From NCBI RefSeq assembly GCF_000720115.1, contig NZ_JOIR01000010.1:1-64000 (forward strand): DNA of 64,000 nt. Direction: 5' to 3'. The DNA comes from Streptomyces sp. NRRL F-2580. GTDB lineage: Bacteria; Actinomycetota; Actinomycetes; Streptomycetales; Streptomycetaceae. This document shows, in pieces, positions 43,643-47,539 of this stretch; the first letter of the stretch is position 1, and each line of letters opens with the position of its first letter. Position numbers and translations under genes: made by a program. The notes beneath the pieces were generated by a model. The model did not search any database and had not been told where the DNA came from. It was given only the letters and a program-made list of their open reading frames with translations.

Positions 43643-43957
43643 TCAGACGGTCCGGGCGCGGAAGTACGCGACCGTCGCGAGCAGGAACGGCACGGCGAAC
43701 CACCACCGGCCCATCGCCCGCCGGAACACGGGGGTGATGGTGAGCAGCAGCCCGAGCAGACAGAGCACGACGGAGCAGTCGCCCATGAACCGGGCGTCGT
43801 CGCGGGTCGGGTCGTACGGCGATTCGGGCCGCAGGGCCAGGGCGACGTAGCACGCGAACGCGGCCGGGGCGTAGAGCAGTACGAGCGGGACGCCGAGCAC
43901 CCACTGCAGACAGCCCCGGTCCTCGGGCAGGTCGATGTTCTCGCGGGGGAGCCTCAT
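43643..43957 (-). CDS. Three-helix membrane protein, paralogue 2 (possible immunity protein)
   Basis: A 104-residue protein with helices near LQWVLGVPLVLLYAPAAFAC, SVVLCLLGLLLTITPVF and RWWFAVPFLLATVAYFRA. It shares layout and motifs with its neighbour at 43954-44274: NIDLPEDRGCLQWVLGVPL versus GVDLPEDHGPLKWVVGVPL, and R-x-(M/A)-x-x-(P/R)WWFA near the end. ATG at 43957 overlaps the neighbour's stop by four bases. It is last in a coupled operon behind a putative muralytic effector; immunity is inferred from that context. Confidence 0.75.
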   Translation of the reverse strand: MRLPRENIDLPEDRGCLQWVLGVPLVLLYAPAAFACYVALALRPESPYDPTRDDARFMGDCSVVLCLLGLLLTITPVFRRAMGRWWFAVPFLLATVAYFRARTV

Positions 43958-44274
43958 GACAGCGTCACCATCCGGATCCAGGCGATCGCCCCGAGGACGA
44001 CCGGCGGGGCGAACCACCACGGGCCCAGCATCCGGCGGACCGGCGGGACGAGGGTGAGGAGGAACCCGGTCAGGCTGAGGCCGAGGGCGAGGAGACACAC
44101 CGCCGTCGTCCCCGCGTACCCCTGGTCGTCCCACTCGGCGGCCGGCCCGTAGCGCACCGCCGTGTAGACGAAGAAGGCGTCGAGCAGGTTGACGAGGGCG
44201 AGCGGGACCCCGACGACCCACTTGAGCGGGCCGTGGTCCTCGGGCAGGTCGACGCCCGCGCCCGGGTGCGTCAT
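43954..44274 (-). CDS. Three-helix membrane protein, paralogue 1 (possible immunity protein)
   Basis: A 106-residue protein with three helices (WVVGVPLALVNLLDAFFVYT, VCLLALGLSLTGFLLTLV, WWFAPPVVLGAIAWIRMV). It is a diverged tandem duplicate of 43643-43957, sharing the DLPED-x-G-x-L-x-WV-x-GVPL opening. Both genes overlap by four bases with their neighbours, so it should be made in ratio with the effector at 44271-45659. No homologous family is recognised. Confidence 0.75.
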   Translation of the reverse strand: MTHPGAGVDLPEDHGPLKWVVGVPLALVNLLDAFFVYTAVRYGPAAEWDDQGYAGTTAVCLLALGLSLTGFLLTLVPPVRRMLGPWWFAPPVVLGAIAWIRMVTLS

Positions 44275-45659
44275 CGCATCGCTTCCTTCACCTGGCCGAG
44301 TCCGTCGGTGAAATCATCGCCGTAGTTCTGGGCCTTCTGCGACTCCCAGTACGGGCCGCCGTTGTAGCGGGCCGCGATCTCGCGCATCTGGGCCTCGGTC
44401 AACTGGTCGGCCGGTACGTCCGCGTACGCGGTCTCCGCCTTGATCTGGGCCAGGTGGCCGGCGGCGATGAACGCGTTCTGCCGGTGGTCCTGGAGGGACT
44501 CCTCCACCAGGGCGCGCTGGGCGTCCGTGAGGTGCGCGGGGTCGTAGCCGAGGACCTCGGCACCGCGCCGCAGCTGGATGGCGATCGGCCCGAAGGACGT
44601 CTGGTCGGGCACGCCGCCGAGCCGGTGGGGGAGGTTCTCGGGCGTGATCGGGCTCAGCGGGAAGGCGGCCGCGTGGCGCAGGTGGTCCGTGACGTCGTCG
44701 GCGTAGCCGGGCTGCCCGGATATCTCGTTCCAGGCGATGCCCGCGACCAGCTCCACGGGCAGTCCCGCGTGCTCGGCGGCGGCCCGCAGGACCTCCTTGT
44801 TGCGGGCGATCCACCGGGCCTTCTCCGCGTCGCTCTCCGGCGGGTTCCAGTACATGTCCTCGCCCTGCGGCAGCCCGGAGATGCGCGTGCGGATGTCCTT
44901 GAGCTCGGGCGACATGTAGACGTCCCCGACCGTCCCGTGCACCTCCCGCTTCGGTCCGCTGCCCGGCAGGTGCGTCAGCGGGCTGTTGCGCGCCTCCTCG
45001 CCCTCCCGGCGCAGGTCCGCCATGGCGGCGTACAGGTCGGGCCGTTCGCCGCCGCGGATCCGCAGCTCGGGCATCAGCTCGTACGCCTGCTTCAGCGCGT
45101 GGACGCAGGCCTCGCGCGCCTCTCGTTCCACCGTCCGGGCCAGGTGGAAGCTGCCGCCCGCGTCGTCGTGGAGCCGGTTCGCCTCGTCGCGGATGTCGTC
45201 CACGTCCAGGGTGACCTCGGCCAGGAAGTCGAAGACGCCGGTCGTCGCGCGCATGTCCTCCCACTGGCACATCGGTTCCGCCTCCTGCGCGACCTTGGTG
45301 ATCGCGGCGCCCTTGGTGGCGATGAGCGAGGCGAGAGCCCGCTCCGACCGCGTGCCGTTGCCGTAGTGGGACTTGGCGGTGGTGAGGGCCAGGGCGTAGG
45401 CGTGCAGGGCGCTCGCCGCCTTGTCGAATGCCTCGGCCATGTGCGTCACCAGCTCCCGGGCGGCGGTGAGGCGCGCGCGGTACGTCTCGCTCCCCTCGCT
45501 GTGCCACTGGGTGTGCCGCTCCGCCCGCAGGGCGGGTTCCTCGACCTGTACGAGGAGCTCGCGCAGCCGGCGGAACTCGTCGGCGTTGCGCTCGACGAGC
45601 GCGGGGTTGCACTCGGCGAGGAAGCGGACGTCCGCGTGGTGGCTCAGGCCGCCGCTCAA
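44271..45659 (-). CDS. WXG-type secreted protein with C-terminal lysozyme/SLT-like domain
   Basis: A 462-residue protein. The N-terminal 100 residues are helical with a Trp-x-x-x-Gly turn (TQWHSEGSETYRARL, Trp52), as in WXG100/LXG proteins exported by type VII secretion. A helical middle with two loops follows to about 270. Residues 275-445 look like a lytic transglycosylase: AGLPVELVAGIAWNEISGQP with Glu312 as candidate acid, TSFGPIAIQLRRGAEVLGYD, and AARYNGGPYW at 430-438. There is no Sec signal peptide. Coupled by ATGA to a small helical protein upstream and to two membrane proteins downstream. It could be a toxin or a cell-wall remodelling enzyme. Confidence 0.75.
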   Translation of the reverse strand: MSGGLSHHADVRFLAECNPALVERNADEFRRLRELLVQVEEPALRAERHTQWHSEGSETYRARLTAARELVTHMAEAFDKAASALHAYALALTTAKSHYGNGTRSERALASLIATKGAAITKVAQEAEPMCQWEDMRATTGVFDFLAEVTLDVDDIRDEANRLHDDAGGSFHLARTVEREAREACVHALKQAYELMPELRIRGGERPDLYAAMADLRREGEEARNSPLTHLPGSGPKREVHGTVGDVYMSPELKDIRTRISGLPQGEDMYWNPPESDAEKARWIARNKEVLRAAAEHAGLPVELVAGIAWNEISGQPGYADDVTDHLRHAAAFPLSPITPENLPHRLGGVPDQTSFGPIAIQLRRGAEVLGYDPAHLTDAQRALVEESLQDHRQNAFIAAGHLAQIKAETAYADVPADQLTEAQMREIAARYNGGPYWESQKAQNYGDDFTDGLGQVKEAMR

Positions 45660-46084
45660 CGGTCCTTGTCCTCCGGCTTCACGTACACGCCGGTGTCGAC
45701 GACCATGCGGAGGAACGCGGCGGCGGTGTCGTCGTCGACGCGGGCGAAGCCGGTGCCGGTGGTCTTCAGGCGGGTGGCCAGGCCGGCGAACAGGGCCACC
45801 GTGTCCTTGAACTGGTCGTCGGCGAACCGCGCGAAGCGCAGGGCCTGCGCCGCGACATCGGGGTGCGCGCGGGGCGCGCGGGCCATCGTGCTCGCGTCAC
45901 CGTCGGGCCGGCCCTCGTGCAGGAGCGCGGCGATCTCGATCAGCAGGTTCGCGTTGCCGTTGATGGACGGTGCCCCGGCCACCAGTTCCCCCGCGGGCGC
46001 CGGCTGATGGAGGCGCGGGGGAACGGGCTGCTCCCCGGCCTGCGCCGCGGCCTTGCACTCGGCCCACTCCGCGTCGAACGTCAT
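45656..46084 (-). CDS. Small helical Esx-like partner of the muralytic protein
   Basis: A 142-residue protein. After a Pro-rich opening, residues about 65-135 form two long helices (HPDVAAQALRFARFADDQFK, ATRLKTTGTGFARVDDDTAA), the hairpin layout of Esx-type partners, although the Trp-x-Gly turn is replaced. It is the first gene of the four-gene set and its stop overlaps the effector start by four bases. A chaperone or co-secreted partner role is inferred. Confidence 0.65.
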   Translation of the reverse strand: MTFDAEWAECKAAAQAGEQPVPPRLHQPAPAGELVAGAPSINGNANLLIEIAALLHEGRPDGDASTMARAPRAHPDVAAQALRFARFADDQFKDTVALFAGLATRLKTTGTGFARVDDDTAAAFLRMVVDTGVYVKPEDKDR

Positions 46085-46495: not shown

Positions 46496-47539
46496 ATGGC
46501 TCCTCAGCACCTTAGCGCGCCGACGCGCGCAGCGGCCCGTGTTCGACCCGGGACCCCCCGATCCGGTGTCCTTCACGTCAACACGCCGCACAGGCGTCAC
46601 TTCACCGTGGTGGGCAACCACCTCCTCCAGCACGCCGATCTGTCGGCGACGGCGATCGGGGTCGGCGCCTACATCCAGTCGCTGCCCGACGGGGCCCCCG
46701 TCGGGATCAAGGCGCTCACGGAGCGGTTCCGCGAGGGGGAGGTGCGGATCGCCTCCGCCCTGCGGGAGTTGGAGCGGCACGGCTACCTGGAGCGGCGGCG
46801 CGAACGGCTGGCGACCGGGCAGGTGGTGACCCGGACGTTCTCGTACAACAGGCCGGGAGCTGTCGCTGGTCCTGACCGCCCGCCGACTTCGGATGGGCCC
46901 CTGCCTTGCGATGATCCGCCGTCGCCTCTCGACGAGCCGCCGTCGCCTGCCGATGACCCGCCGTCGCTTGCGGATGACCCGCCGGCTTGCGATGACCACC
47001 CGTCTTCCGACGATCCGCCGCCTCCGGATGGCCCGCCTTCGCCTCCATCGTCACCGCTTCCGCTTCCGCCTCCGCCTCCGCCTCCGCCACTGCCGGTCCG
47101 GGAGCCCTTGCCGGCGCCGGGGTCGGGGCCGGCGTCGGCTCGGAGGGGTCGGGCCTTCGATGCTCTGCCCGTGCCGCGGGCGTTGCACCCCGGCGCGGCC
47201 GATCTGCTCGCCGGGCTGCGGCGGCACGATTCGCGGCTCCTGCTGTCCGAACGCGACGTACGGCGGCTCGTTCCGGGGGTATCGGCCTGGCTGGAGCGCG
47301 GGGCCGACCCCGAGGCGGTGGCGCGAGCACTGTCCAGCGACCTCCCCGAGCACATGCGCGACCCCGCGTCCGTCCTCGCGTACCGGCTCGGCGAACTGGT
47401 CCCGCCGCACCTCCCGCCCGCACCGGTGATCCGGCGGCCCAGACGGCCGGATCCCCTCCAGAACTGCGACAGCTGCGATCGCGCCTTCCGTGCCCCGGCT
47501 CCGGGTCGTTGCCGCGACTGTCCGCCGGCCGCCGCCTAG
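46496..47539 (+). CDS. Winged helix-turn-helix protein with Pro-rich linker and Cys-rich end
   Basis: A 347-residue protein. Residues about 35-110 form a winged helix (DLSATAIGVGAYIQSLPDGA, RFREGEVRIASALRELERHG) like replication or transcription regulators. An 80-residue Asp-Asp-Pro-Pro linker follows, encoded by tandem repeats near 46920-47100. Then comes a helical domain (LHPGAADLLAGLRRHDSRLL, EAVARALSSDLPEHMRDPAS) and a Cys-x2-Cys...Cys-x3-Cys end (NCDSCDRAFRAPAPGRCRDC) that may bind zinc. Such proteins are frequent in Streptomyces; targets are unknown. Confidence 0.82.
   Translation: MAPQHLSAPTRAAARVRPGTPRSGVLHVNTPHRRHFTVVGNHLLQHADLSATAIGVGAYIQSLPDGAPVGIKALTERFREGEVRIASALRELERHGYLERRRERLATGQVVTRTFSYNRPGAVAGPDRPPTSDGPLPCDDPPSPLDEPPSPADDPPSLADDPPACDDHPSSDDPPPPDGPPSPPSSPLPLPPPPPPPPLPVREPLPAPGSGPASARRGRAFDALPVPRALHPGAADLLAGLRRHDSRLLLSERDVRRLVPGVSAWLERGADPEAVARALSSDLPEHMRDPASVLAYRLGELVPPHLPPAPVIRRPRRPDPLQNCDSCDRAFRAPAPGRCRDCPPAAA

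Follow-up and report, generated by a model that had tools for sequence, protein, structure and literature searches.

The 64,000-nucleotide stretch of DNA analyzed here (the window; positions 1 to 64,000 of contig NZ_JOIR01000010.1 from Streptomyces sp. NRRL F-2580) carries a compact set of four minus-strand genes, A, B, C, and D (46084 to 43643), which probably constitutes an antibacterial effector module, i.e., an operon in which B would be a muralytic toxin exported by a type VII (ESX) secretion system, A its export partner, and C and D its membrane immunity proteins. An initial annotation had read the set as a type VII-exported muralytic toxin with membrane immunity, an interpretation supported, as far as anatomy and evolution go, by the modeled fold of B, its predicted N-terminal hairpin, a motif in the partner, an ESX locus in the genome, and gene linkage. 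Gene A (45656 to 46084; 142 amino acids [aa], ATG start) encodes a putative export partner, a helical protein of EspC/PE/Lap1-like type, and gene B (44271 to 45659; 462 aa, with a TTG start overlapping the stop of A) the putative exported muralytic toxin. Gene C (43954 to 44274; 106 aa, ATG start, three hydrophobic segments) would encode an immunity protein and gene D (43643 to 43957; 104 aa, ATG start, two clear and one weaker hydrophobic segment) a putative second, diverged immunity paralogue.

All four open reading frames (ORFs) are present, with overlaps of exactly four bases at the three junctions as originally described, and a codon-usage gene caller placed the four starts at identical sites. 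The overlaps are more than chance, since similar spacing recurs in the 30 loci where A, B, and C were all called: 20 of these have an A-B gap of −4, and between B and C the gap equals −4 in 15 loci and −1 in 5. A search in other genomes, suggested by the initial annotation, was made in a sample of 295 Streptomyces genomes, where the cassette recurs. A lies upstream of B in 37/37 full-length B loci, and a C-type gene lies downstream, within 1 kb, in 35 (exceptions, L047 and L051), so that the membrane genes are linked to the toxin. The 37 loci represent 35 distinct ones, L075 and L076 being duplicate contigs of L008 and L009; G287 is absent from them because its B was called short by the gene caller.

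The C-terminal part of B (residues 262 to 462; 44274 to 44876, minus strand) corresponds to a predicted toxin domain with a lysozyme/lytic-transglycosylase fold. In an alignment of 68 selected B homologues (A1), the presumed catalytic acid, Glu312 (codon at 44724 to 44726), is invariant (68/68), as are S355, G357, Q362, Y432, N433, and G434, and the RHS and enterobacterial forms displayed also have a Glu at the aligned position. The model of this region resembles Tse3 and lytic transglycosylases, and the SLT profile matched 60 of the 68 homologues at an E value of ≤1 (best, 2.7e-5). Structure comparison and the SLT matches in homologues hence bear out the lytic-transglycosylase-like C terminus first noted; the window's own B had no Pfam SLT match (limit, E value of 10, with filters dropping most matches above 0.1). 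B combines the predicted fold of the GH23/SLT group with its presumed catalytic Glu, and lysozyme-type hydrolysis is as possible as lytic transglycosylase cleavage. Among solved structures, neither B (phmmer) nor its profile found a sequence match beyond coiled-coil-like ones. Foldseek alone returned nothing at an E value of ≤0.001, and PADLOC gave no match.

Residues 3 to 202 of B (45054 to 45653, minus strand) form a predicted helical-hairpin type VII export domain. The AlphaFold2 model (mean predicted local distance difference test score, 80.5) has hairpin helices H19-49 and H55-116, and a W52-x-S-E-G turn (45492 to 45506) lies between helices 2 and 3. Trp52 is invariant (68/68), while position 54 is Ser in 64 homologues and Gly in 4; the "WXG-type" label originally given to this domain therefore stands for the hairpin and the tryptophan but fits the motif only loosely (W-x-S in 64, W-x-G in 4). 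The statement that B has no Sec signal was corroborated, a hydrophobic signal segment not being found. Structure comparison likens the N-terminal fold to PPE proteins. These by definition carry a PPE motif near the N terminus, and this motif is absent from the translated N terminus of B. Profile searches of B and A homologues gave weak PF21725, WXG100, and EspC-type matches, and NCBIfam models run on the 68 B sequences returned only WXG100_ESAT6 in two, plus chance-like matches.

The initial annotation had placed the secretion machinery at a distant locus. In the host genome (an 8.4-Mb draft in 156 contigs), ESX genes are indeed found away from the cassette, on contig C5, encoding EccB, EccC, EccD, EccE, a MycP-like subtilase-type protease, and two WXG100 proteins. 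EccB is present in 30/30 genomes with full-length B versus 263/295 overall (hypergeometric P of 0.026), a co-occurrence that is consistent with ESX export but weak. At the sequence level, B is supported as a type VII (ESX) secreted effector, with ESX-dependent export predicted.

Alternative toxin ends on the B N-terminal domain were not encountered among 86 matches, the 12 atypically short of which were compared with B, in a search spanning proteins of 254 to 808 aa. The short homologues P0136 to P0143 were considered as alternative toxins and rejected, most of them being out of frame near the toxin junction as judged by eye; P0141 stops at the junction, and P0143 has an internal deletion. Remote relatives of the N-terminal domain with other C termini were detected at L196:5546-7089 (G307, 446 aa) and L197:5342-10035 (G503, 1,456 aa), each preceded by a small gene (68 aa with a 4-base overlap in L196, 103 aa in L197).

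Gene A was compared using an alignment (A2) of 32 of the 36 A genes. Its description as "Esx-like" is partly sustained by EspC matches (5/32), WXG100 matches (2/32), and a motif, but the matches are weak and the structure model is poor. The motif, [YF]xxx[DE] (F113-D117; 45734 to 45748, minus strand), is a candidate export arm found in 31/32 aligned homologues, 10 of which have the strict Y form; the window's A carries Phe instead. A thus appears to bear a YxxxD/E-type export arm in [YF]xxx[DE] form, resembling that of Lap1 and PE proteins. The motif sits after a long helix in a low-confidence model of A; the model itself was discarded as too poor for use. A is present in 34/295 genomes, including all 30 with full-length B. 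The four genomes where it occurs without full-length B are G001 (B runs to the contig end), G273 (partial B), G178 (a remnant), and G085 (a single ORF matching A and C, with no B found there). Full-length B is thus always accompanied by A, and A rarely occurs without it, which indicates that A shares the fate of B. Across 30 loci, moreover, A divergence tracks that of the B N-terminal domain (partial r of 0.68) better than that of the toxin domain (0.29), in line with a role as binding partner.

The membrane proteins C and D are diverged duplicates, as had been proposed, with 42% identity over the match (E value of 1.4e-18). The claim of three helices in each is likely correct, the average of 52 sequences (alignment A3, 52 of 78 C-type genes) showing three, but it is less firm for the individual proteins, especially D: a crude count at a mean hydropathy of >1.6 gives two segments in C and two in D, and the third appears at a mean of 1.3 in C and only at 1.1 in D. 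Asp49 of C (codon at 44128 to 44130, minus strand), in a predicted extracytoplasmic loop, is invariant (52/52); this acidic loop 1 is taken as outside because loop 2 is basic, hence cytoplasmic. In a tree of 27 of the 52 sequences, D groups with D (support, 95/91), apart from C, and C with C (87/96), the latter with an open fork. In five of seven tandem C-D pairs, the first 15-codon block has a nucleotide identity of 0.78 to 0.89, with 0.38 to 0.60 in the middle blocks, and L070 has an apparent D-type 5′ end on a C-type body. A comparable pattern of recombining type VII immunity paralogues is described for Bacillota (PMC9484751). Median nonsynonymous divergence (dN) of C is ∼2.3 times that of B (451 locus pairs, NG86), and median omega is similar for orphan C (0.88; 21 sequences) and for C beside full B (0.96; 41 sequences); these NG86 dN/dS values are saturated and GC biased, and the comparison alone was used.

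The distribution of the genes across the sample reveals an asymmetric pattern of loss. Near-full-length B is found in 30/295 genomes and any B match in 47/295, and C is found in 56. Full-length B is missing from 33 of these 56 and any B match from 24, some of the C genes in the 24 being truncated. Of 72 C places, 71 were examined (G111 omitted; upstream stretch of 3 kb where available): 28 lie beside full B, including 6 second tandem copies, 13 beside B pieces, and 30 have no B in the upstream stretch. The matched C stretch lacks an internal stop in 71/72, some of the matches being partial. In the 30 B-less places, the called C gene is 79 to 138 aa long in 22 and 55 to 68 aa in 4, and none was called in 4 (two of which are pieces of one gene in G180). 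Beside B pieces, a separate C gene of 79 to 107 aa was called in 9 of 13; C is fused in frame to B remnants in L087 and L121 and was not called in L127 and L060. B is repeatedly broken up, frameshifted, or internally deleted while C persists. Overall, the toxin gene is lost by decay or deletion, the export partner disappears with it, and the membrane gene usually stays. That B is nearly always accompanied by C, whereas C often occurs without B and A rarely does, argues for immunity; this asymmetry is what an immunity gene predicts and not what a holin, an anchor, or a part of a secretion system would. An adjacent immunity-type gene that also occurs as an orphan is, in addition, the genomic pattern of polymorphic toxins. 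Decayed cassettes are exemplified by L087, L121, L128, and L208, with gene pieces, in-frame toxin-membrane protein fusions, an internal B deletion, and an A-plus-C ORF without B.

The toxin domain also occurs on other delivery parts, another feature of polymorphic toxins: besides the type VII-type B, it is found on YD-repeat proteins in three genomes and as a stand-alone, Hcp-linked protein. Long YD-repeat (RHS-type) proteins of G212 and G234 carry it at the C terminus (the RHS profile was tested for G234), as does a YD-repeat protein in G347, from another family, where the contig ends right after. The gene next to the G234 protein (L058) encodes 97 aa with three segments; that next to the G212 protein (L057) has two segments in the frame as called, with further hydrophobic sequence in frame upstream of it. 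The B profile matched 8 of 296 genomes in the class, and outside the genus only G347, G436, and, for the N-terminal part, G307; the taxa named among the 120 B homologues listed are Streptomyces and one Kitasatospora. Of 72,556 plasmid records, 13 were matched by B, including two Streptomyces plasmids in which the genes stand in the order A-B-C (profiles confirmed A and C). These two (L213 and L216) are large linear plasmids with a transposase gene near A-B-C in each, a possible spread route. The order hcp-toxin-DUF2645 was found in Serratia, two Rahnella records, and one Escherichia coli record, with toxin-DUF2645 gaps of −4 in Serratia, −1 in Rahnella, and +6 bases in E. coli. In Cronobacter, a protein matching the B profile over residues 279 to 449 (probability of 99.1, E value of 1.5e-18) has no hcp annotated nearby and is followed by a 98-aa gene with three segments; in Nostoc, the domain ends a large protein and the next gene does not encode a membrane protein. 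Homology of C to the RHS-linked, DUF2645 (one member compared), or Cronobacter membrane proteins was unsupported by profile comparison; these small proteins lack detectable sequence kinship and hence may be convergent or far diverged.

In 5,426 complete E. coli genomes, the hcp gene of the toxin locus was detected in 1,254 and the toxin in 1,254, and ygiZ (DUF2645) in 4,566, in 4,549 of them over ≥80% of its length; at the sensitivity of megablast, at least 3,295 genomes thus carry an almost complete ygiZ without the toxin. K-12 strain ER2796 has mdaB, ygiZ, and qseC, with neither hcp nor the toxin annotated. The K-12 ygiZ gene looks like an orphan immunity gene, and the immunity reading gains support from the same pattern of loss in a different phylum and with a different secretion system. 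The hcp-toxin-ygiZ genes lie between mdaB and qseC at L215:1881-3412 (K-12 counterpart, L217:2479-2811). No paper on DUF2645, or on DUF2645 as an immunity family, was found in the open-licence literature searched, in which 18 papers name ygiZ.

Several findings weigh, or might seem to weigh, against an ESX-exported toxin with dedicated immunity. C divergence shows no preference for the toxin domain (0.37, versus 0.55 for the N-terminal domain), which speaks against a simple lock-and-key relationship. The membrane genes are unlinked from B in the 30 B-less places among the 71, an arrangement that the initial annotation had named as refuting its proposal; that expectation was badly framed, since an immunity gene should persist after its toxin is lost. 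The type VII apparatus is not beside the cassette, EccB is so common that its co-occurrence with B is weak evidence, and the toxin domain is used by several delivery routes, all of which would suit a toxin-immunity set in which B leaves the cell by a non-ESX route, e.g., lysis or a contractile particle. We consider such an exit unlikely given the N-terminal hairpin and invariant Trp turn of B, the weak PF21725/WXG100/EspC-type matches, and a dedicated partner that bears the [YF]xxx[DE] arm.

Somewhat less probable still is that B is an exported wall-remodeling enzyme serving growth, sporulation, or the secretion channel of the producer, with C and D anchoring or regulating it. Streptomyces does remodel its wall heavily, and dedicated peptidoglycan hydrolases assist some secretion systems; however, near-full-length B is patchy compared with EccB, is often in pieces while C persists, and shares its toxin domain with RHS-type proteins and with proteins beside Hcp. 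A muralytic-type enzyme adjoining small membrane proteins also recalls a holin-endolysin-like lysis cassette, phage derived or for altruistic release, in which C/D holes would release or activate B in the producer. Phage_holin_2 was matched by 3/52 C members (best E value, 6.9e-4), and PHROG 11932, of unknown function, matches the toxin domain (44349 to 44822; B residues 280 to 437) at 2.7e-16. Against this, tblastn found no match to the toxin domain at an E value of ≤0.01 in 50,697 phage records, C occurs without any B match in the 24 genomes noted above, which would be odd for a pore former, B has a type VII-type N terminus and a dedicated partner, and E. coli keeps DUF2645 without the toxin. 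We therefore rejected this reading, whose probability is very low. Muralytic activity of B, its export, and protection by C/D are predictions that comparison of sequences and models supports.

In the effector module that we favor, A would pair with the N-terminal hairpin domain of B in the cytoplasm. The pair would present to EccC a two-part signal, with B contributing its W-x-S/G turn and A its [YF]xxx[DE] arm, and B would be exported by the ESX system, whose genes lie elsewhere in the genome. Once outside, the C-terminal domain, whose lysozyme fold and Glu312 are indicated by the model and by conservation, would cut peptidoglycan glycan strands via this residue and may lyse nearby competitors devoid of immunity. 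C and D, predicted to reside in the producer membrane with the N terminus inside and the acidic Asp loop outside, would block the toxin at the membrane-wall interface, and with two diverged copies the producer would tolerate a wider range of toxin variants. If B is a muralytic effector served by its own export partner, the role of actinobacterial ESX could be tested directly in harmless laboratory species, and membrane-embedded immunity to a wall-cutting enzyme raises the question of whether it acts as an inhibitor, as a decoy, or by guarding nascent glycan strands. It is possible, if short of probable, that these sets form a cross-phylum class in which one lysozyme-fold toxin, delivered by ESX, RHS, or Hcp, is in each case neutralized by a membrane protein of ∼100 residues with three transmembrane segments, ygiZ being an orphan immunity gene. 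If true, actinobacterial ESX gains a wall-cutting antibacterial weapon and the uncharacterized E. coli K-12 gene ygiZ is explained.

The genes bordering the cassette appear unrelated to it; the downstream one, oppositely oriented, encodes an SDF-family symporter and the upstream one a MarR regulator, and an uncertain frame (46496 to 47539) with a weak helix-turn-helix match is placed between the symporter and the MarR regulator. The same genome has a second type VII-type toxin set on contig C43 (L160:8834-12598), with two WXG100 genes followed by a 607-aa protein that has an RNase A toxin domain (PF18431) at its C terminus and by 196- and 191-aa genes with similar N termini, perhaps tandem immunity paralogues. 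A gene that, judged from its sequence, looks like hemB flanks both this set (L160:7388-8386) and the A-B sets of G284 and G289 (L051:9547-10479 and L047:9353-10255, respectively); the shared flanking gene suggests that the site may be a hotspot for type VII toxin cassettes. Strong T7SS_signal (PF21725) matches at 150228 to 150944 of contig C2 and 58591 to 59319 of contig C39, in frames of ∼1,500 aa, may mark large type VII toxins.

Most documented cases of antibacterial type VII secretion concern type VIIb of Bacillota (PMC9484751), and polymorphic toxins on type VII carriers are known (PMC3482391), as are type VII toxins with targeting partner and immunity in Bacillota and, represented by AaEAS (PMC12691689), in an actinobacterium, and a lytic-transglycosylase-type type VI effector (SleB-like; PMC11148199). 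In the available text of PMC3482391, transglycosylase and muramidase are absent and lysozyme occurs once. The initial view that the set was undescribed held in the open-licence literature searched, where we found no description of this cassette or of a lytic-transglycosylase type VII toxin, and no paper combining type VII secretion with muramidase and WXG100 or with an SLT domain.

Among known systems, Tse3-Tsi3 of the Pseudomonas aeruginosa type VI secretion system resembles the cassette in that Tse3, a peptidoglycan muramidase effector with immunity, has the same general toxin fold, although the secretion system differs and identity to B is about 13% over the alignment. Tsi3 is not known to have three transmembrane segments, the number likely for C and D. 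The Hcp-linked effectors with ygiZ/DUF2645 (E. coli, Serratia, and Rahnella) share the toxin-domain family and the small membrane protein that follows, but delivery is of the type VI kind, by the neighboring Hcp, and DUF2645 (one member) has no detectable homology to C. The type VIIb LXG toxins with Lap1-Lap2 are similar in having a helical N-terminal export domain and a C-terminal antibacterial domain, and both the Lap1 FxxxD motif and [YF]xxx[DE] of A lie in a small helical partner near the end of a long helix; the cassette differs in its predicted actinobacterial ESX route, single rather than double partner, absence of a matched LXG domain, putative muralytic toxin, and two small membrane paralogues as putative immunity (PMC9600955). 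TspA-TsaI of Staphylococcus aureus is comparable in that a type VII toxin away from the secretion locus is neutralized by membrane proteins in tandem nonidentical copies, but TspA depolarizes membranes, and TsaI is a DUF443 protein with five predicted transmembrane segments in two to sixteen copies (PMC9484751). AaEAS of Amycolatopsis azurea is also an actinobacterial type VII-linked toxin with an upstream targeting factor and a small, likely immunity gene downstream; unlike B, it is an alarmone synthetase with an LXG domain, and cytoplasmic expression of its toxic domain inhibits growth (PMC12691689). Type VII polymorphic toxins with partner and immunity are thus already known, and the comparison supports as new here a putatively muralytic ESX-type effector with paired, putative membrane immunity.

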